DNA from: a virus
Direction: 5' to 3' (one strand)
Virus record (IMG/VR): IMGVR_UViG_3300037225_001121
Coordinates: 1 to 20,782 of that record
DNA length: 20,782 nt
The notes under the pieces were generated by a model, which had not been told where the DNA came from, did no database searches, and saw only the letters and a list, made by a program, of their open reading frames with translations. A program made the position numbers and the translations under genes. Shown here piece after piece: positions 4,034 to 20,782 of the stretch. Position 1 is the stretch's first letter. Every line of letters begins with the position of its first letter.

Positions 4034-4756
4034 ATGATATTAGATGAATATGTTAAAGTAAGATGGAATCAAAATAATAAAAAATATTATATTAAAAAAG
4101 GATATAATCTTACTAAAATTGGTGATTTATTTGATGTTAAAGTTGATGATTTATCAAATGAATCACATGTATTTGTCAATGCAAAATGTGATGTTTGTGG
4201 TAAAATAAAAACGATTATATATCGAGAATATACCAATAATATTAAAAATGAAAATTATTATTGCTGTTCAAGAAAGTGTTGTGTTGGTAAAAAAAACAAA
4301 ACTGTTTTAAAAAGATATGAAGTTAAAAATGTTTCACAACGTGAAGAAATCAAAGAAATGAAAAGACAAACCAATATTGATAATTATGGCGAAATTTATA
4401 TGAAATATTTTCCAAAATATAATGTTAATTCAATAATATATTTGGATATACTTTCAGAAAAATTAAAGTTACCAATATTACATGCATTAAATGGTGGCGA
4501 AAAAAAATTTATAAGATATTATGTTGATGGTTATATTCCAGAATATAATATATGTATTGAATGGGATGAAAGACAGCACAATATAAAAAGAAAAATAGAA
4601 AGAGACAATAAAAAAGATAATTTATTAAAGGAAAATTTTGGTTGTCAAATTGTGAGAATTAATCAAAAAAATTTTTTAAGTGATATTAATGGTCAGACAG
4701 AAATTGCAGTCAATAAAATTAATGAGGCAATAGCAAGACATGGCAAGCGAGTATGA
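4034..4756 (+). CDS. Vsr-like (PD-(D/E)XK/EDxHD) endonuclease with Cys cluster, putative homing or repair nuclease
   Basis: The protein has 240 residues. The N-terminal half has a probable zinc site made of CDVC (52-55) and two CC pairs (77-78 and 82-83). A DNA-binding-type linker follows (KTVLKRYEVKNVSQREEIK ... TNIDNYGE), like the K-T-x-x-x-Y-G-V-x-N-x-x-Q repeats of phage endonucleases. The C-terminal domain has D165-G-Y-I-P-E, IEWDE (174-178), H182, ERD (189-191) and a G-x-x-x-x-R-I strand near 203-209. This matches the very-short-patch-repair-like nuclease fold. It sits 5 bases after the helicase gene and overlaps the next gene by 17 bases, so it is cotranscribed with replication genes. 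It may be a selfish homing nuclease lodged between replication genes, or a resident DNA-processing nuclease; sequence alone does not decide. Confidence 0.75.
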   Translation: MILDEYVKVRWNQNNKKYYIKKGYNLTKIGDLFDVKVDDLSNESHVFVNAKCDVCGKIKTIIYREYTNNIKNENYYCCSRKCCVGKKNKTVLKRYEVKNVSQREEIKEMKRQTNIDNYGEIYMKYFPKYNVNSIIYLDILSEKLKLPILHALNGGEKKFIRYYVDGYIPEYNICIEWDERQHNIKRKIERDNKKDNLLKENFGCQIVRINQKNFLSDINGQTEIAVNKINEAIARHGKRV

Positions 4757-13317: not shown

Positions 13318-16300
13318 ATGACATACGCTGAATTCAAACAGAATTTCTTACCACAATTTCTTAATATTAAAACATTTAGTGGCAAAATGGAATATGCCAA
13401 ACAAAATCTTCAAAGGATTGGTTCAGGCACTGGCAGAATTGTATATGATATTGATGGTCAAAAGGTATTAAAATTAGCAAAAAATACTAAAGGTATTGCA
13501 CAAAATGCTGAAGAATCAAGTATCGGTAGAGATTATTATGTTGCAAATATTGTTACAGAAGTATTCGAAGCTGCGGATGATGATAGCTGGCTGATTGCTG
13601 AAAAAGCTAAAAAGGTTAATGAGAATAGAATCAAACAATTAACAGGTATTCCAAGTTTAACAGAGTTATATTATTATTTAAGTCAATTTAAAGAAGAAAA
13701 TAAAGGAAGAAGAAGCTGGTATAGCGTTAGTGTTGAAGTCAAAGAAATACTTGATGAAAATGATTTTGCCATGAGTTTAAAAGAACTTATAGCAAATTAT
13801 GACCAATCTGCCGGAGATATGAGTAGACCAAGTAGTTACGGGGAAGTACTTCATGATGGTCAACCAACAATTGTTTTGACGGATTATGGTTTAAGTGATG
13901 AAGTATATAATACTCATTATAATCCTGAAAGAAAAAATAAACCTCAATATCAAATGTATGAATATTATAATGATGCAAATGGTAATGATGACATGCTTTC
14001 AAATATGGGCGATAGTGATGGTAAAGAAATACGTAATGGTATGTGGGCACTTTCTCCCTATGATGTTGATGATGGTTCGGGTGTTATAAATGAAGACTTT
14101 ATATCATTCATACTTAACAGAGATAAATATCCTACAAGAGCATTACCAAGTGCACCATATTTGATTGATGAATTTCATAATTGTGTAAATAATTTAAATG
14201 AATATATAAATCATTCCGGAAATAAAAGAAAATTCTACAATAACTTACTTGAATTACAAGATTATTTGATAAGAGGAAAATTTTATGATAGAGAACCATT
14301 GCCAAAAGAAATGGTTATTGATGAATCTAATGTTTTAAAAGAATATGTTGAAAGAGAATTAGCTAATAGTATTGCTTCTCAGGTCGTACAACAATATAAT
14401 TATGGAACTCCTAAATATATTGGTGAAGGTGGATTTGGTGTTGCTTATGATATTGATAATAAAATGGTATTGAAAGTTACATCAGACAGAAGTGAAGCAA
14501 ATGAAAATATGGAATTAATGGGTAAACCATTAAAATATATTGCTGAACCTTATAGAGTATTTGCAATTAAACCAGAATCAGGTGAAACAAAATATTATGT
14601 AATTATATTAGAAAAACTTAAAACCGATAGTGCTTATTTTAAAACAATGGTTGATAGAATGAATTTTGCTTTTGCAAGAATTATGGGTAGTAATTATGCT
14701 GATGTTGTTGATTATTATGTTAATAAAGATAAAGGTATTTTTGATAGTAACATTGATGAAGAAAAGATTAAAAAATACATGGCAAGAAATCCAAAGGATA
14801 AAGAATTCTTTGATAAAATATTGGCAATAGGAGAAGAAGTAAATAAATATGGTCTTGAAAGTACTGATTATATAAATCCAAATAATTTGGGTTATAAGCC
14901 TGATGGTACTTTAGGATTTTTTGATGTGGGTTTTGGTAATTATTTCTTTAAGTCTGCAAATCAACCAGAAGAAATTACAGTAAATGAAGATGGTACTTCA
15001 AAATTTTCAACTGCTGATGCTATTGGTAATGATAATTTTCCTGCACATAATAATATTGATAATTCACCAATGACAGATAATAATATTCCTACAACTGCTG
15101 ATACATCAATTGATGAAGATTTGGAATATAATCATGCCAGTGATGCTACTAAGGATAAATATATTATGACTGAAAGAGTTAAATCATATATGCCTGGAAG
15201 TAAAAGTGTTGAAGTTAAAAAGAAATGCAGGTTAGGTGGTTTGGGACATACAAGTGTTGCATGCAATCAAGGTGATATGAGCAATTTAAATCTCAAATCA
15301 ATCGATGAAAATGCAGAGGTTACATTACCAAGTACACTTCCTGGATATGAATCATTTCCAATATTGAATGACAGTGAAACAGTAGGTGAACTTAGCATTA
15401 TTGACAGGGGTGTTTGGGGTGGTAATCATTATATCGCTGTTGATAAAATCTTTATCGAAAAAGAATTTAGAGGCATGGGTTTTGCTAATGAAGCAATGGA
15501 AGATTTATTTGAATATGCTGACCAAAATAATATAATAGTTACATTAACTCCAGACAATCTTTGGGGTGCAAATAAAAATAAATTAAAAAGTTGGTATAAA
15601 TCTATAGGATTTGTAGAAAATAAGGGTAAAAAGAAAGATTTCCAGACAATGCAGGCAATGTACAGACTACCAAAGAGTTTAATGAATGAAAACATTGAGG
15701 CAAGTGAAGTATACAGCAATGATGATTCAATTAAGACTGTTATTGGCAAGAAACGTGATATTGGCTTTGTTGAAATAAATAAAGCAATATTTCAATCATT
15801 GGAAAAATATCGTATTGGTGTTATACCAGTAAGAATGGTTACTGCATATGTTATGATGGCAATAATTTATCATCAAACTGCTAAAGATAAAGCATTAAGA
15901 TTATTTAATATTGTTAAGCAACATAATGGTTATCTGAAAGATAAAACTCCAGAAGAAGCACGTGAAATCGGTCAATTATTAGGATATACAGAAAGAAGTA
16001 TTGCTGAATATATTCGTAGAAAATATCCTAATAAAGTTCCTACAGCACCAGAACCTGAAGATTATAATAATATTGATGAAAATTCTCAAAATGAAAATGA
16101 AAATTCTCAAAATGATAAACAAATTAATAAAGATGTTGCTACACATGGTTTGAATCCAGTATATGTCAGAACATATAAAGATAATGATGATACTGTAGAT
16201 GTTTATACTGTTAATGGTGATGAAATGCGTGATATGGGATTTATCGAATGGGTGGATGGTGGAAATCATTGGGTGGATGCAGATTTACCTAAATCAGAAC

Positions 16301-19182
16301 AAAAATATGCGAAACATATACCAAAAGATAAAATTGTTGTTGATGATGTATTCGTAAAAAAACCAATTGATTTTGAAGGAATTTTATTGCATGAAAGGAC
16401 TGAAAGTTATATTATAAAACATTTTGGTTATCAGTATGATGATGCTCATATAATTGCAAATAAAATTGAATTGTTATTCAGAAAAAAAGCAGTAAAAGAG
16501 AATATTCAAACTGATGAAGATGCCGAAAGATTGGCAAGTTTAATGTATGCAGGTTTTAAGAAGAAATTTAAAGGCAATAAAAAACATCATAAATTTTTAA
16601 GTGAAGATGTTGCAGATACTTATGGACAACAAAAATTCGGTCTTGAATTACCTCATAAAGGTTTTGAAGATAAATTTAATAGAGAAGAAAAGGAAGATGT
16701 TGTATTTGTAAGTCCTGTAAGCGATTTGGTAATTATCAGAAATCCCAAATCTTTGAATGATATTGGAAATGATGTGAGAGGAATAATTGACCCTGAAGGT
16801 AATTTATATACTGAGCAAAGAAATGCAGGTATACATTTTGATATGCTTTATGAATTAAATAAACTGGGTCTTGTTGTAGATGAAGAAGATTGGGATGCTA
16901 AACTTCCTACAAATTTTGTTACTGTTCAAAGATATGGAAAAACAAATAAATATTGTTTGGGCGAATCAAATTATCCGATGTATAATAATATGACACATAG
17001 AATTGGTTCAGCATATTGGGAAAAAATGCCTACTTTCGAACAAGCAACACCAGTATATCAAAGATTTTTGGATAAAGCAAAACAAAAAAATCCATCGATT
17101 GAATTTATTAATGAACCAATAAATTATTATTATGGGGATGGAACGGAAAAAGATGATATCTTTGAAACAAAAAATATAAATGAAGCTGAAATAATGTCAC
17201 TACAAAATTTACCATTTAAAGATGAAGTTGAAAAACTTGGCGGTGAGATATATGCTGTTGGAGGTGCTGTCAGGGATGAATTTCTTGGCAAACAATCCAA
17301 AGATTTGGACATTATTATTCGTAATATTCCTGAAGAACAGCTTGTTAAAATTTTAGCTAAATATGGTACTGTTAATCCTGTGGGAAAATCGTTTGCTGTA
17401 ATGAAATTCAGACCTAAAAATTCTACTGAAGTTATTGATATTGCTCTTCCAAGAACAGAAGTATCTACAGGTGAAGGACATAAAGATTTTGAAATAACTG
17501 CTGATTACAGATTGCCGATTGAAAAAGATTTGGAACGTAGGGATTTTACAATCAATGCTATTGCCAAAGATATGCAAGGTAATATTATTGACCCATTTAA
17601 AGGTCAAGAAGATTTAACTGATAAAGTTATTCGTGTTACACATCCAAAGTCATTTTCTGATGACCCACTCAGAATGTTACGTGCTGTACAGTTTTCTTCA
17701 CGTTTTGGTTTTAAAATTGAACCTGAAACGTATCAAATGATTAAAGATAATGCTGGTAAAATAAAAACCGTTGCAAAAGACAGAGTTCAGGAAGAGTTAT
17801 CTAAAATTATTGAGAAAGGTAATCCATTTATTGGAGCACAATTATTACAGGATAGTGGTTTACTTTCACAAATGATAGGCACAAACGTTCCACCATTTAC
17901 TAATGATGAAAATTGGAAAAATGTTCGAACAATGGCTGAATTTGTATATATGCTCGTACATAATGTTCAATCACCATTGGATTTTTATAAAAGAAATTTA
18001 AGGGGTGACACAGCAATTATTAATGAATTACAAGGTTTAATGATTGGTATGGATGAAAAAAATATCAGTACTAATCTGGTTGTTAACAGGTCTATTGCAC
18101 ATAATATGGCTTTGGTAGCTAAAGGAAATAATGTATTGCAAAGTAAATTATTATCACAAAATTTACAGGTTGCTTGTCAGGAATTATTAACAGGTAAATA
18201 TCCTATTACTATTAACGATTTGGCTGTTAATGGTAATGATTTAATATCGCTTGGCTTAATAGGTAGAGAAGTCGGTGATATGCAGAAATCGTTATTAGTA
18301 AAAGTTTATGCTGATAAAGTAAAAAATGATAAAGATTCCTTATTAGGTATAGCAGGTCAGGGTAATAATGAAGTAAAAGAAGGTATTGCTGATACATATG
18401 CGGAAAAACAGTTTAATATTCCTAATGTGCCTGCTAAAATGAATGTACAGGCAATGGCAGGTATGCAAAAAGAAGCTGAATTTCCTGTTGGTTATGTTGA
18501 AACACCATATTCTTCCAAAGAGAAAAAAGTAGCAATATATTTAAATCCAAAATCATTAACCAATTTTGATTATGAAGTCAGGGCAATTGTAAATGATAAA
18601 GGAGATTTATATGTTGCACAGACAGGTGGCAGATTTAATCATGGTATGATGGCAAAAGCATTAGGTTTATTTGATAATGATAATGATTTATATGTACATG
18701 GAGATGAATATCAGGGATTACAGAGAATTGGTAAAACAAATTCATTTGGTGTAAGTGATAGTGGTATGGAATATGCTCAAAAGAATTATGAAAATATTGA
18801 AAATACTAAAGAAATATTACGTGAAGTAAAAAGAAAAAATCCACAATATGAATTTTATTTACAACGTTACGATGACCAATTATATAGTAAATCAATAAGT
18901 CTTGACGAATTTGCATTTCCTGAATTTCCAGAACCAAATGATACTTGGGATATAAATGGTGAACAAGTTGGTATACCATTTTTTGTGGAAAAATATGACA
19001 TATGGAATCAGGGTGGATATTCAGACCCTTCAGAAGGGTCAGTACTTGAATTTTTACAAAATAATTATGAAGATTTTGTTCATGATGAAAGGTTAAAAAA
19101 AATATTATTACAAGCATTGACCGATAGAAATATTTTGGATGAAATAAATCAAGACGTAGTAAATCAGCACGATAATGAATGA
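13318..19182 (+). CDS. Giant multidomain protein: two kinase-like folds, GNAT, HExxE module, CCA-adding-type nucleotidyltransferase
   Basis: The protein has 1954 residues. The domain order is: kinase-like 1 (30-200; GSGTG 35-39, K52, D167, D189-Y-G); kinase-like 2 (360-545; GEGGFG 369-374, K386, D517, N522, D536-V-G); Cys motif CRLGGLGHTSVACNQGD (637-653); GNAT acetyltransferase (about 674-786; acetyl-CoA loop RGMGFA 718-723); helical module (802-907); HERTE module (about 930-1080; H1025-E-R-T-E1029 and H1044); ADTY module A (1097-1263); and a class II CCA-adding/poly(A)-polymerase-like domain (about 1290-1670). The last shows GGAVRDEFLG 1315-1324, D1329/D1331, ERRDFTINAIA and DDPLRMLRAVQF. 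ADTY module B (1689-1848) and an acidic tail complete it. Linkers are Asn/Asp/Glu-rich. There is no signal peptide or membrane segment. It opens an operon whose next genes are also RNA-end-processing types. It could be a precursor cut into parts; no protease gene is in view. Confidence 0.85.
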   Translation: MTYAEFKQNFLPQFLNIKTFSGKMEYAKQNLQRIGSGTGRIVYDIDGQKVLKLAKNTKGIAQNAEESSIGRDYYVANIVTEVFEAADDDSWLIAEKAKKVNENRIKQLTGIPSLTELYYYLSQFKEENKGRRSWYSVSVEVKEILDENDFAMSLKELIANYDQSAGDMSRPSSYGEVLHDGQPTIVLTDYGLSDEVYNTHYNPERKNKPQYQMYEYYNDANGNDDMLSNMGDSDGKEIRNGMWALSPYDVDDGSGVINEDFISFILNRDKYPTRALPSAPYLIDEFHNCVNNLNEYINHSGNKRKFYNNLLELQDYLIRGKFYDREPLPKEMVIDESNVLKEYVERELANSIASQVVQQYNYGTPKYIGEGGFGVAYDIDNKMVLKVTSDRSEANENMELMGKPLKYIAEPYRVFAIKPESGETKYYVIILEKLKTDSAYFKTMVDRMNFAFARIMGSNYADVVDYYVNKDKGIFDSNIDEEKIKKYMARNPKDKEFFDKILAIGEEVNKYGLESTDYINPNNLGYKPDGTLGFFDVGFGNYFFKSANQPEEITVNEDGTSKFSTADAIGNDNFPAHNNIDNSPMTDNNIPTTADTSIDEDLEYNHASDATKDKYIMTERVKSYMPGSKSVEVKKKCRLGGLGHTSVACNQGDMSNLNLKSIDENAEVTLPSTLPGYESFPILNDSETVGELSIIDRGVWGGNHYIAVDKIFIEKEFRGMGFANEAMEDLFEYADQNNIIVTLTPDNLWGANKNKLKSWYKSIGFVENKGKKKDFQTMQAMYRLPKSLMNENIEASEVYSNDDSIKTVIGKKRDIGFVEINKAIFQSLEKYRIGVIPVRMVTAYVMMAIIYHQTAKDKALRLFNIVKQHNGYLKDKTPEEAREIGQLLGYTERSIAEYIRRKYPNKVPTAPEPEDYNNIDENSQNENENSQNDKQINKDVATHGLNPVYVRTYKDNDDTVDVYTVNGDEMRDMGFIEWVDGGNHWVDADLPKSEQKYAKHIPKDKIVVDDVFVKKPIDFEGILLHERTESYIIKHFGYQYDDAHIIANKIELLFRKKAVKENIQTDEDAERLASLMYAGFKKKFKGNKKHHKFLSEDVADTYGQQKFGLELPHKGFEDKFNREEKEDVVFVSPVSDLVIIRNPKSLNDIGNDVRGIIDPEGNLYTEQRNAGIHFDMLYELNKLGLVVDEEDWDAKLPTNFVTVQRYGKTNKYCLGESNYPMYNNMTHRIGSAYWEKMPTFEQATPVYQRFLDKAKQKNPSIEFINEPINYYYGDGTEKDDIFETKNINEAEIMSLQNLPFKDEVEKLGGEIYAVGGAVRDEFLGKQSKDLDIIIRNIPEEQLVKILAKYGTVNPVGKSFAVMKFRPKNSTEVIDIALPRTEVSTGEGHKDFEITADYRLPIEKDLERRDFTINAIAKDMQGNIIDPFKGQEDLTDKVIRVTHPKSFSDDPLRMLRAVQFSSRFGFKIEPETYQMIKDNAGKIKTVAKDRVQEELSKIIEKGNPFIGAQLLQDSGLLSQMIGTNVPPFTNDENWKNVRTMAEFVYMLVHNVQSPLDFYKRNLRGDTAIINELQGLMIGMDEKNISTNLVVNRSIAHNMALVAKGNNVLQSKLLSQNLQVACQELLTGKYPITINDLAVNGNDLISLGLIGREVGDMQKSLLVKVYADKVKNDKDSLLGIAGQGNNEVKEGIADTYAEKQFNIPNVPAKMNVQAMAGMQKEAEFPVGYVETPYSSKEKKVAIYLNPKSLTNFDYEVRAIVNDKGDLYVAQTGGRFNHGMMAKALGLFDNDNDLYVHGDEYQGLQRIGKTNSFGVSDSGMEYAQKNYENIENTKEILREVKRKNPQYEFYLQRYDDQLYSKSISLDEFAFPEFPEPNDTWDINGEQVGIPFFVEKYDIWNQGGYSDPSEGSVLEFLQNNYEDFVHDERLKKILLQALTDRNILDEINQDVVNQHDNE
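16078..16119 (+). repeat. 21-bp tandem duplication in a linker
   Basis: Two adjacent 21-base units beginning GAAAATTCTCAAAATGA encode ENSQNEN and ENSQNDK inside the giant protein. They lie in a disordered linker between the helical module and the HERTE module. The near identity of the copies suggests recent slippage expansion. Confidence 0.8.
16606..17106 (+). repeat. ADTY module copy A of the giant protein
   Basis: Residues 1097-1263. It shares with copy B the sequence VADTYGQQKF, NPKSL with a DVRGI strand and G-N-L-Y, YGKTNKY, and a final KAKQKNPSIEF. The fold is unknown. It lies just before the nucleotidyltransferase domain. Confidence 0.75.
18382..18861 (+). repeat. ADTY module copy B of the giant protein
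   Basis: Residues 1689-1848. It matches copy A in order: IADTYAEKQF, NPKSL with an EVRAI strand and G-D-L-Y, IGKTNSF, and a final EVKRKNPQYEF. The copies are diverged, so this is an old internal duplication, now flanking the nucleotidyltransferase domain. Confidence 0.75.
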
Positions 19183-19555
19183 GATAGCTTATAGTGCAAT
19201 TGTTCTGGACCAAAAATCTCGTTCAAGATTATTGGAACGTTTTAAATCAATGATACCTGAAGATTGGGAAGTTCTTGCTGACCATATGACTATTAATTTA
19301 GGTGAAATAAATCCTGAATATCAAAAGTATTTGGGATTACCAATACAATTGAGTGTTAAAGATATTGCAATGGATGATATTGTAATGGCAGTAGGCGTAA
19401 CAGGTTTTGGTAGTACAAATGCCAAACCACATATTACAATTGCAGTAAATCGTATTGAAGGTGGAAAACCATATATGTCAAATAAACTTACTGATTGGAA
19501 ATCAATTGGCAGACCATTATTATTAACCGGAAAAGTAACTGAAATAAATAAATAA
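19175..19555 (+). CDS. 2H phosphoesterase (RNA-repair type)
   Basis: This 126-residue protein has two H-x-T motifs, HMT at 37-39 (ADHMTINLGE) and HIT at 86-88 (KPHITIAV). These are the catalytic signature of the 2H phosphoesterase superfamily, which acts on 2',3'-cyclic phosphates or 2'-5' linkages in RNA. The N-terminal strand YSAIVLDQKSRSRLLERF followed by DWEV resembles the 2H domain described in Swiss-Army-Knife RNA-repair proteins. The start overlaps the giant gene by 8 bases, so expression is coupled, and the next gene begins 1 base after its stop. Opening of cyclic phosphate ends on cleaved tRNA is an attractive role beside a CCA-adding-type domain and a HAD phosphatase. Nucleotide-second-messenger cleavage (anti-CBASS Acb1-like activity is also in the 2H class) is a genuine alternative. 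Confidence 0.8.
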   Translation: MNEIAYSAIVLDQKSRSRLLERFKSMIPEDWEVLADHMTINLGEINPEYQKYLGLPIQLSVKDIAMDDIVMAVGVTGFGSTNAKPHITIAVNRIEGGKPYMSNKLTDWKSIGRPLLLTGKVTEINK

Positions 19556-19556
19556 T

Positions 19557-20144
19557 ATGGAAAATTTTAGTAATAATCAATTTAAAATTTTTGGTGATTT
19601 TGTTGAAGACGAAATTTTAAAAAAAATACAAGTAAAATGTTCATTAGCATGGAATGTAAATAAAGAAGGTGTAAGAAACAAAAAACGTGATATTAAGATA
19701 CCCGAAATTAAAAAAAGTGTTGAAGTTAAGGCAGATTATGTTTGTCCTGCAACAGGTAATTTATGGATTGAAGTTGTTGGTTGGGATGGTGATTCTGGAT
19801 TAACAACAACTGATTCTGATTGGTGGATATTTGTTACTGGTTTTCGCATAATCTGGATTACACCACTTGAGATATATCGTTTTCTTGAAACACATCCCAA
19901 ATCACATCATGGAAGAGAAAGTAAAGTTGGTAAAGGTGATAGTTATAATAAAATCGTATATTCTGTAAATCATGATGATTTTGTGAATTATGTTTATAAT
20001 TTGGATAAAAAAAATGGTCATGTTGAAATGATTGATAAAAATGATTCATTATATTGGTTTAATTGTTTGAAATATAATTCAGATTTAGAAGAAAAATATA
20101 TGGAAGATGTTAAAAAGATGATGAAAAATTTAAATATGAAATAA
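19557..20144 (+). CDS. PD-(D/E)XK nuclease-like protein, paralogue 1
   Basis: This 195-residue protein has an N-terminal helix with acidic residues (GDFVEDEILKKI, E18). A core follows with RD (D45) and SVEVKADY (E56-x-K58), consistent with a PD-(D/E)XK active site. The stretch TGNLWIEVVG (66-75) and SGLTTTDSDWW (80-90) comes next and is shared with the next gene. The rest is a beta-rich segment and a charged helical tail. PD-(D/E)XK proteins include restriction enzymes, Holliday-junction resolvases and repair nucleases; this one is not assigned further. It starts 1 base after the 2H gene and ends 1 base before its paralogue, within the same transcription unit. Confidence 0.68.
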   Translation: MENFSNNQFKIFGDFVEDEILKKIQVKCSLAWNVNKEGVRNKKRDIKIPEIKKSVEVKADYVCPATGNLWIEVVGWDGDSGLTTTDSDWWIFVTGFRIIWITPLEIYRFLETHPKSHHGRESKVGKGDSYNKIVYSVNHDDFVNYVYNLDKKNGHVEMIDKNDSLYWFNCLKYNSDLEEKYMEDVKKMMKNLNMK

Positions 20145-20145
20145 T

Positions 20146-20649
20146 ATGGCAAGCTGGAAAGAAACTTCTGAAATGGGATTTGAATTTGAAGATTTTGTTT
20201 TGGAAGATATTAATAAAAAAGTTCTTCCTTTAGCATATAAAAATACGATAAAGGAAAATTATAGTTTTTATGATATTATACTTTTTAAAGGGAATTTTGG
20301 TGAACAAAGTAAAACACTTGAATGTAAATATGATGAAAAGGCAAGTCATACAGGCAATATTTGTATTGAAGTTGGTTGTAATGGTAGAGCATCAGGTCTT
20401 TTAGTAACTACAGCAGATTATTGGCTTATTGGTGATGGTTATATTGGATATTTGATTGAAACAACAAGAATTCGTGAATATATTCTTGAAAATGGAAATG
20501 AAATTATATATAAACCAAAATGTCTAATAAAACAGGAAGATGGTGTTTATAAAGAAATGGATATTTATCTTATAAAAAAAAGTATTTTTGAAAAATATTG
20601 TTCTGAAATAAATAACATAGATGATATGAAGTATGATTGTTTAAAATGA
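20146..20649 (+). CDS. PD-(D/E)XK nuclease-like protein, paralogue 2
   Basis: This 167-residue protein has GFEFEDFVLEDI at the N-terminus (E13/E15), SFYDIILF with D43, and KTLECKYD with E59-x-K61. TGNICIEVG (69-77) and SGLLVTTADYW (83-93) follow. Order and spacing match the preceding protein, so the two arose by tandem duplication and diverged strongly. The D...ExK arrangement is a clearer PD-(D/E)XK match than in paralogue 1. Its stop overlaps the next start as ATGA, so it is translationally coupled to the HAD phosphatase. The substrate, DNA or RNA, is unknown. Confidence 0.7.
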   Translation: MASWKETSEMGFEFEDFVLEDINKKVLPLAYKNTIKENYSFYDIILFKGNFGEQSKTLECKYDEKASHTGNICIEVGCNGRASGLLVTTADYWLIGDGYIGYLIETTRIREYILENGNEIIYKPKCLIKQEDGVYKEMDIYLIKKSIFEKYCSEINNIDDMKYDCLK

Positions 20650-20782
20650 TTACAAAGTTAGTAGCAATTGATTTTGATGATACTCTTTCAAATTCTCCAC
20701 ATCCTGAAGAAGGTAAAGAAATCTGGAAAGAAAAAACCGGACAGGAATTTCCATATACTGGTTGGTGGAGCAAACCTGAAAG
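20646..20782 (+). CDS. HAD phosphatase, Swiss-Army-Knife RNA-repair type (3' partial)
   Basis: Only the first 45 codons are in the window. The start reads MITKLVAIDFDDTLSNSPHP, giving the HAD motif I DxDxT with the nucleophile and acid/base Asp residues. It is followed by IWKEK ... FPYTGWWSKPE. A DFDxTL-x-x-S-P-x-P start followed by GWW is the pattern of the HAD domain found in Swiss-Army-Knife RNA-repair proteins (HAD_SAK). It would remove a 3' phosphate, or act as a phosphatase partner to the upstream 2H protein. The start overlaps the preceding gene by 4 bases. The rest of the gene runs past the right edge, so length and extra domains are unknown. Confidence 0.75.
   Translation, partial: MITKLVAIDFDDTLSNSPHPEEGKEIWKEKTGQEFPYTGWWSKPE

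Follow-up and report, generated by a model that had tools for sequence, protein, structure and literature searches.

Two adjacent, distantly related PD-(D/E)XK-type genes in a probable giant phage and the phage family that they match

The gene pair and its neighbours

The window, that is, the whole 20,782-base stretch of viral DNA that was analysed, carries two genes, hereafter A and B, which lie on the same strand, are separated by a single base and both correspond to intact open reading frames (Table 1). A previous sequence-only reading had described them as a tandem pair of PD-(D/E)XK-like genes sharing a TGN and an SGL motif, and the ORF positions as well as the D, E and K residues that it listed for each protein were found to be exact. 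From the ExK motif onwards the two proteins are spaced identically, with 8 residues from K to TGN, 14 from TGN to SGL and 8 from SGL to a D-x-W motif, and the sole difference in spacing concerns the distance from D to ExK, which is 11 in A versus 16 in B.

Table 1. Position, strand and basis of the features discussed in the text
Feature	Position or motifs	Strand	Basis or remark
Source stretch (window)	20,782 bases		IMG/VR virus record
1954-aa multidomain protein, poly(A)-polymerase/CCA-type nucleotidyltransferase and GNAT-like region	13318..19182	+	Pfam, PHROGs
2H phosphoesterase-type gene upstream of A	19175..19555	+	PF08302, E 2.6e-5; two H-x-T motifs, HMT and HIT
Gene A, divergent protein of PD-(D/E)XK type, 195 aa	19557..20144	+	ORF and phrog_13596 match
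Gene A motifs	G13-x3-E17 (first helix), D45, E56-x-K58, TGNLWIEV 66-73, SGL 80-82		Residue numbering
A, codons D45-K58, putative catalytic and metal-binding residues	19689..19730	+	Aligned with B
Gene B, protein of PD-(D/E)XK type, 167 aa	20146..20649	+	ORF and phrog_13596 match
Gene B motifs	G11-x3-E15, D43, E59-x-K61, TGNICIEV 69-76, SGL 83-85		Residue numbering
B, codons D43-K61, putative catalytic and metal-binding residues	20272..20328	+
Start of HAD phosphatase gene, DFDDT motif	20646..20782	+	Overlaps B stop; cut by window end

The two genes had also been called paralogous, which holds in the sense of adjacent homologues. BLASTP aligned A with B at 38% over 47 aa (E 4e-7), and their Smith-Waterman score of 77 was reached in none of 2000 shuffles of B, for which the mean was 32.8 (sd 5.3) and the maximum 66. 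Both proteins also matched the same PHROGs v4 profile, phrog_13596, with E values of 1.2e-7 for A and 4.9e-9 for B; this HMM further matched all six members of our first family alignment at E <= 1. On these comparisons the likeness of A and B exceeds chance and their common ancestry is established, so that they are best described as adjacent but distantly related homologues, their origin by duplication in place being a separate claim. Their GC contents are 0.265 and 0.255, respectively. Neither protein matched a Pfam model at E <= 5, an NCBIfam model at E <= 0.1 (the Hjc and RecU family models included), a PADLOC model at E <= 0.1 or any of the RNA-repair models tested, and phrog_13596 was not found by name in the literature searched.

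The surroundings of the pair had been described as RNA-repair-type, and this proved to be real for a 2H phosphoesterase, a CCA-type nucleotidyltransferase and a HAD protein resembling the Swiss-army-knife type. The 1954-aa protein matches PF01743 (4.6e-23), PF12627 (7.8e-14) and phrog_2244 (1.4e-67), together with PF13508 at 2.1e-4, below the cut-off. CCA-type and paired H-x-T (2H) motifs were found upstream of B in 8/8 loci (seven distinct related loci and the window), and a HAD gene lies downstream of B in 7/8 (six by motif, L009 from its ORF), the eighth locus, L008, ending at a contig edge. For the HAD orthologues of relatives, PF10307 (HAD_SAK_1) matches were obtained at 5.4e-5 and 1.4e-4, both short of the curated cut-off. 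RNA ligase matches occurred in two of the five related records searched, which are the two long ones. Passages of PMC7824862 attribute 2H proteins, CCA-adding enzymes, Swiss-army-knife HAD proteins and RNA ligases to the RNA repair of jumbo phages.

The 1954-aa protein also contains long stretches to which no domain could be assigned, and in a number of relatives this ORF also includes the 2H domain as a fusion. In this it resembles the 'polyvalent' proteins, and passages of PMC5512222 describe 2H domains as parts of such injected proteins.

Other endonuclease genes were seen in the window and its relatives. A free-standing, homing-type GIY-YIG endonuclease with NUMOD3 repeats occupies positions 1320-2120 of the window on the minus strand, antisense to its neighbours, while the ORF at 4034-4756 has weak MTES_1575 and DUF559 matches. 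DUF559/Vsr-like ORFs were found between B and the HAD gene in L009 (3507-4226), the only locus with such an insertion beside B, and after the HAD gene in L039 (5088-5831). Each occupies a different spot near the B locus, and these ORFs are probably mobile endonucleases.

Conserved residues and predicted fold

Conservation was examined in an alignment of 26 rows (B numbering hereafter). E59 and K61 of the ExK motif, E75 of the IE motif and G84 of the SG motif are invariant (26/26), while N71 of TxN and S83 of SG each occur in 25 rows. The glutamate of the first helix, E15, is retained in 21 rows and replaced by Q in the remaining five. The TGN motif is not strict, as three B-clade rows have TQN and some compact rows other forms. 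The upstream D is more variable: it is present in 11/26 rows, replaced by Q in four and falls in a gap in the 11 compact rows, which have no D hairpin. D43, E59 and K61 are all present in the eight B-clade rows, and the D also occurs in A. Its exact place in A, D45, depends on the alignment, since one alignment misplaced it whereas a second one and L-INS-i put it on D43 of B. In four aligned members linked to MT-A70 genes (see below), Q replaces the helix E as well as the D. With the D absent or changed to Q in 15/26 rows, some members of the family may rely on a different acidic residue or lack activity.

All 11 aligned rows of the compact members (L018-L037 and L004) carry an F-x-x-D-L-x-x-G motif just before the first helix, and its aspartate is possibly a relocated acidic residue.

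The predicted structure of B was obtained with AlphaFold2 from a 17-sequence alignment, with a mean pLDDT of 89.2 and a pTM of 0.85. Re-alignment of the top Foldseek PDB chains against this model gave the best Z value for I-Ssp6803I (9.3 over 121 residues, rmsd 2.9), followed by Hjc of A. fulgidus (8.9), Eco15I (8.6), NhoI (8.4) and RecU (8.3), and further down by D212 (8.1), SPARDA (7.8), HinP1I (7.5), PvuII (6.5) and EcoRV (5.5). Middling structural Z values are common among unrelated folds. Of the 36 entries listed at Z >= 5, 35 are ones that we take to be PD-(D/E)XK nucleases, the exception being 8a4c. In the Foldseek PDB search itself the B model matched nothing at E <= 0.001 (best, MutH at E 0.059), and the profile of the family alignment gave no match at E <= 5 against all PDB sequences. 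In BFVD, 12 matches for B and five for A were found at E <= 0.001, none with a stated function.

The model of A has a lower pLDDT (62.5), although most of residues 45-150 lie at 70-89, and the order of its elements is as in B. Its best Z values are those of Eco15I (7.2) and NhoI (7.0), then RecU and, in fifth place, I-Ssp6803I, down to 6.5. As the alignment used for A consisted of B relatives, this model is not an independent test. A PD-(D/E)XK fold is thus well supported for B by its predicted structure, and reasonable for A by homology and by its weaker, non-independent model. According to the sequence-only reading, the assignment would fail if no fold match existed or if the D, E and K residues varied among relatives; a fold match was found by prediction and E and K are kept in 26/26 rows, but the D is not conserved across the family, being kept in only 11.

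Distribution and origin of A and B

Relatives of B were detected by tblastn in 14 named phage records, 12 of which are pelagiphages. Searches with two compact members returned 44 places in 44 records each, one per record, among which the 385-kb Xanthomonas phage XacN1 is the one long-genome member. Compact members of phrog_13596 comprise about 112-160 aa, are often found within DNA-replication modules and match A and B directly in sequence; they share the same ExK, TxN, IE and SG core but are shorter and devoid of the D hairpin.

In IMG/VR, eight related records of up to 365 kb carry a B orthologue with 42-64% identity; the locus DNA of two of them (L039 and L040) is identical, which leaves seven distinct sequences. 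The source phage of the window is a probable giant phage. Each of the eight related records, which may be fragments, contains a single copy of the family, always the B orthologue (profile search, E <= 1), and B is syntenic in 9/9 records when the window is included. A profile search with A recovered only these same B copies, in 6/8 records. A permissive search of two records added a single match (E 0.016), which fell within a 1540-aa frame and was taken as chance. When the B-clade alignment was compared with genome contigs, 93 pattern matches were obtained, none of which was confirmed. As for A, the whole protein had no relative in viral contigs and no match in named phages. The A-B tandem pair was therefore seen in the window only, with the reservation that the related records may be fragments, and the best reading is that B has long been resident in this phage lineage while A is an accessory, strongly diverged extra copy.

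The strong divergence of the two genes had been attributed to events following a duplication, a view that fared less well. When bit scores of A are compared, the B orthologue of L041 (45.4) and the compact members of L018 (43.5) and L025 (40.4) all rank above the window's own B (33.9), and the eight related records have B only. As A is no closer to the B next to it than to members from other phages, a recent tandem duplication appears unlikely. The tree recovered the eight B rows as a supported group (100/99) with A outside, the placement of A being weak, its branch long and only 4 of the 23 inner branches starred. Constraining A to group with the window's B gave a tree 15.6 log units worse, which was not rejected (p-AU 0.124). 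A may possibly be a paralogue of old standing, a duplicate that has evolved fast or a copy that was acquired. The tree and the 26-row counts omit L006 (close to L004), L040 (identical to L039) and L063-L065, as well as the compact L019-L022, L024, L026, L027, L029, L033, L034 and L037, mostly near-copies of the rows used, and L062 was trimmed to its first 200 residues for both.

Neighbours of the wider family and candidate roles

Outside this lineage, members of the family are found next to genes of another kind. In the pelagiphage HTVC019P (AGE60597.1) the member lies between a DNA polymerase and an exonuclease, and in a further pelagiphage an exonuclease adjoins it. In C75C1 it is located between an exonuclease and an annotated DNA methyltransferase, with Endonuclease VII, Erf and SSB genes nearby. 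A T7-type helicase-primase adjoins the member in L025, an exonuclease VIII-like gene in L028 and also, as judged by the shared Pfam domain, in L030, and C5 methyltransferases in L017 and L018. In 5/5 loci scanned with Pfam (L059-L063), an MT-A70 domain on a ParB-like protein occurs directly upstream, overlapping or adjoining the TGN-type nuclease; these loci belong to seven returned by a query biased to A's core, with L065 identical to L061. No recognised partner gene was found beside the member in L023, L031 and L035, so that the link with methyltransferases is recurrent but not general. Taken as a whole, the surroundings of the wider family point to DNA.

These data are most consistent with A and B being phrog_13596-like phage PD-(D/E)XK nucleases acting as metal-dependent DNA endonucleases or nickases, with B as the resident enzyme and A as an accessory diverged copy, a reading to which we give a probability of about 0.6. 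The putative active site, the DNA substrate and the role of the two proteins are those that we infer from the data above. The second-strand acidic residue and the ExK glutamate would bind a divalent metal, the conserved first-helix E may take part as it does in Hjc-type enzymes, and phage or host DNA would be cut or nicked while the phage replicates or recombines its DNA or takes over the genome of its host. The counter-point is that in this particular lineage the neighbours are RNA-end enzymes, not DNA enzymes. The phrog_13596-like family is an unnamed variant within the well-known PD-(D/E)XK superfamily, and the reading would provide a fold and a candidate active site for a family so far without function in pelagiphages, XacN1 and jumbo-type phages. 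It would also correct two likely misreadings, as the pair need not be a recent duplication and RNA-repair neighbours need not imply an RNA substrate.

The recurrent methyltransferases raise the question of whether the family is the cutting half of restriction-like pairs, which would cleave DNA lacking (or carrying) the mark of a phage methyltransferase, whose gene may be adjacent or at another place in the genome, and so destroy host or rival DNA. The MT-A70 genes directly upstream in five of five loci, the C5 genes in L017 and L018 and the methyltransferase of C75C1 all agree with this, as does the presence among the top structural matches of Eco15I and NhoI, both solved with methylated DNA (first and second for A, third and fourth for B), with which no sequence relation was found. 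Unlike these, A and B have no partner methyltransferase: none lies beside either gene in the window, none was recognised in those portions of the fetched B-clade loci whose ORFs were read, and a C5 methylase was seen in only one of the two long related records. Moreover, the pelagiphage members read adjoin polymerase or exonuclease genes and the MT-A70 loci were retrieved with a query weighted towards A's core. We regard such a role as rather unlikely.

A role of B as a Holliday-junction or branched-DNA resolvase serving phage recombination is also one that we regard as unlikely. The best structural matches of B include Hjc and RecU, and its succession of helix E, D and ExK is one that we take to be the layout of Hjc. 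The archaeal Hjc and Bacillus RecU resemble the B model in fold; B, however, has an additional TxN-xx-IE strand and SG turn, and neither enzyme matches A or B in sequence. REase-fold proteins of jumbo phages are proposed as alternative resolvases in passages of PMC7824862, which also names a jumbo-phage REase 'novel family' (APU01428.1). Both long related records nevertheless already encode Endonuclease VII, a finding that makes a resolvase role less likely, and endonuclease VII in C75C1 and endodeoxyribonuclease I in HTVC019P are annotated in the same region as their family member. RuvC was found in neither of the two long related records.

Two further proposals concern A more specifically, and both are improbable. 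In the first, A would be a selfish endonuclease of the free-standing homing type that arrived next to a distant cousin. I-Ssp6803I is the best structural match of B and the fifth of A, A occurs in the window only, and the lineage is rich in mobile endonucleases of the GIY-YIG/NUMOD3 and DUF559-like types. Against this, A and B are homologous, have the 1-base spacing of an operon and are alike in GC, and neither a target site nor an insertion scar was identified. As for B, its presence in 8/8 related records differs from what is expected of a mobile gene, a pattern that the window-only occurrence of A would fit, and despite its fold match to I-Ssp6803I it is syntenic in 9/9 records and not missing from close relatives. 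In the second, A and B would form a candidate heteromeric nuclease, as had been suggested earlier, with one subunit specialised for recognition. The genes are adjacent, co-directional and intact, and ExK is present in both proteins, but all eight related records have B alone. A broader version is just as doubtful, namely that a widespread nuclease family defined by E-x-K, T-x-N-xx-I-E and S-G would repeatedly pair with unrelated C5 or MT-A70 methyltransferases as a restriction-like weapon; in this jumbo-phage lineage it lies within an RNA-repair cluster, and in the window it would have acquired a second, diverged subunit as a candidate heteromer partner.

Finally, it is very improbable that A and B act with their RNA-repair neighbours in cutting or trimming damaged tRNA or RNA, as PD-(D/E)XK enzymes mostly act on DNA and members outside the lineage have DNA-type neighbours, in spite of the CCA-type and 2H genes upstream in every locus scanned, the HAD gene downstream in all but one and the RNA ligases of both long related records. 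The earlier suggestion that the nucleases work with repair enzymes amounts to a guess from position, since the wider family stands beside DNA-replication and DNA-methylation genes; moreover, the whole block is collinear among relatives, so that the linkage may be inherited and is weak evidence of joint function. Gene types that passages of PMC7824862 place in jumbo-phage RNA repair are neighbours of A and B, but none of the RNA-repair models tested is matched by either of the two proteins.

A further point in favour of the nuclease reading comes from the fuller-length member of XacN1, which has weak matches to the PADLOC models CARF_PDDEXK (0.0015) and homing endonuclease (0.0074). At this locus (L058, 4181-4996) the family member overlaps an R2K-clade ATP-grasp gene (PF14243).
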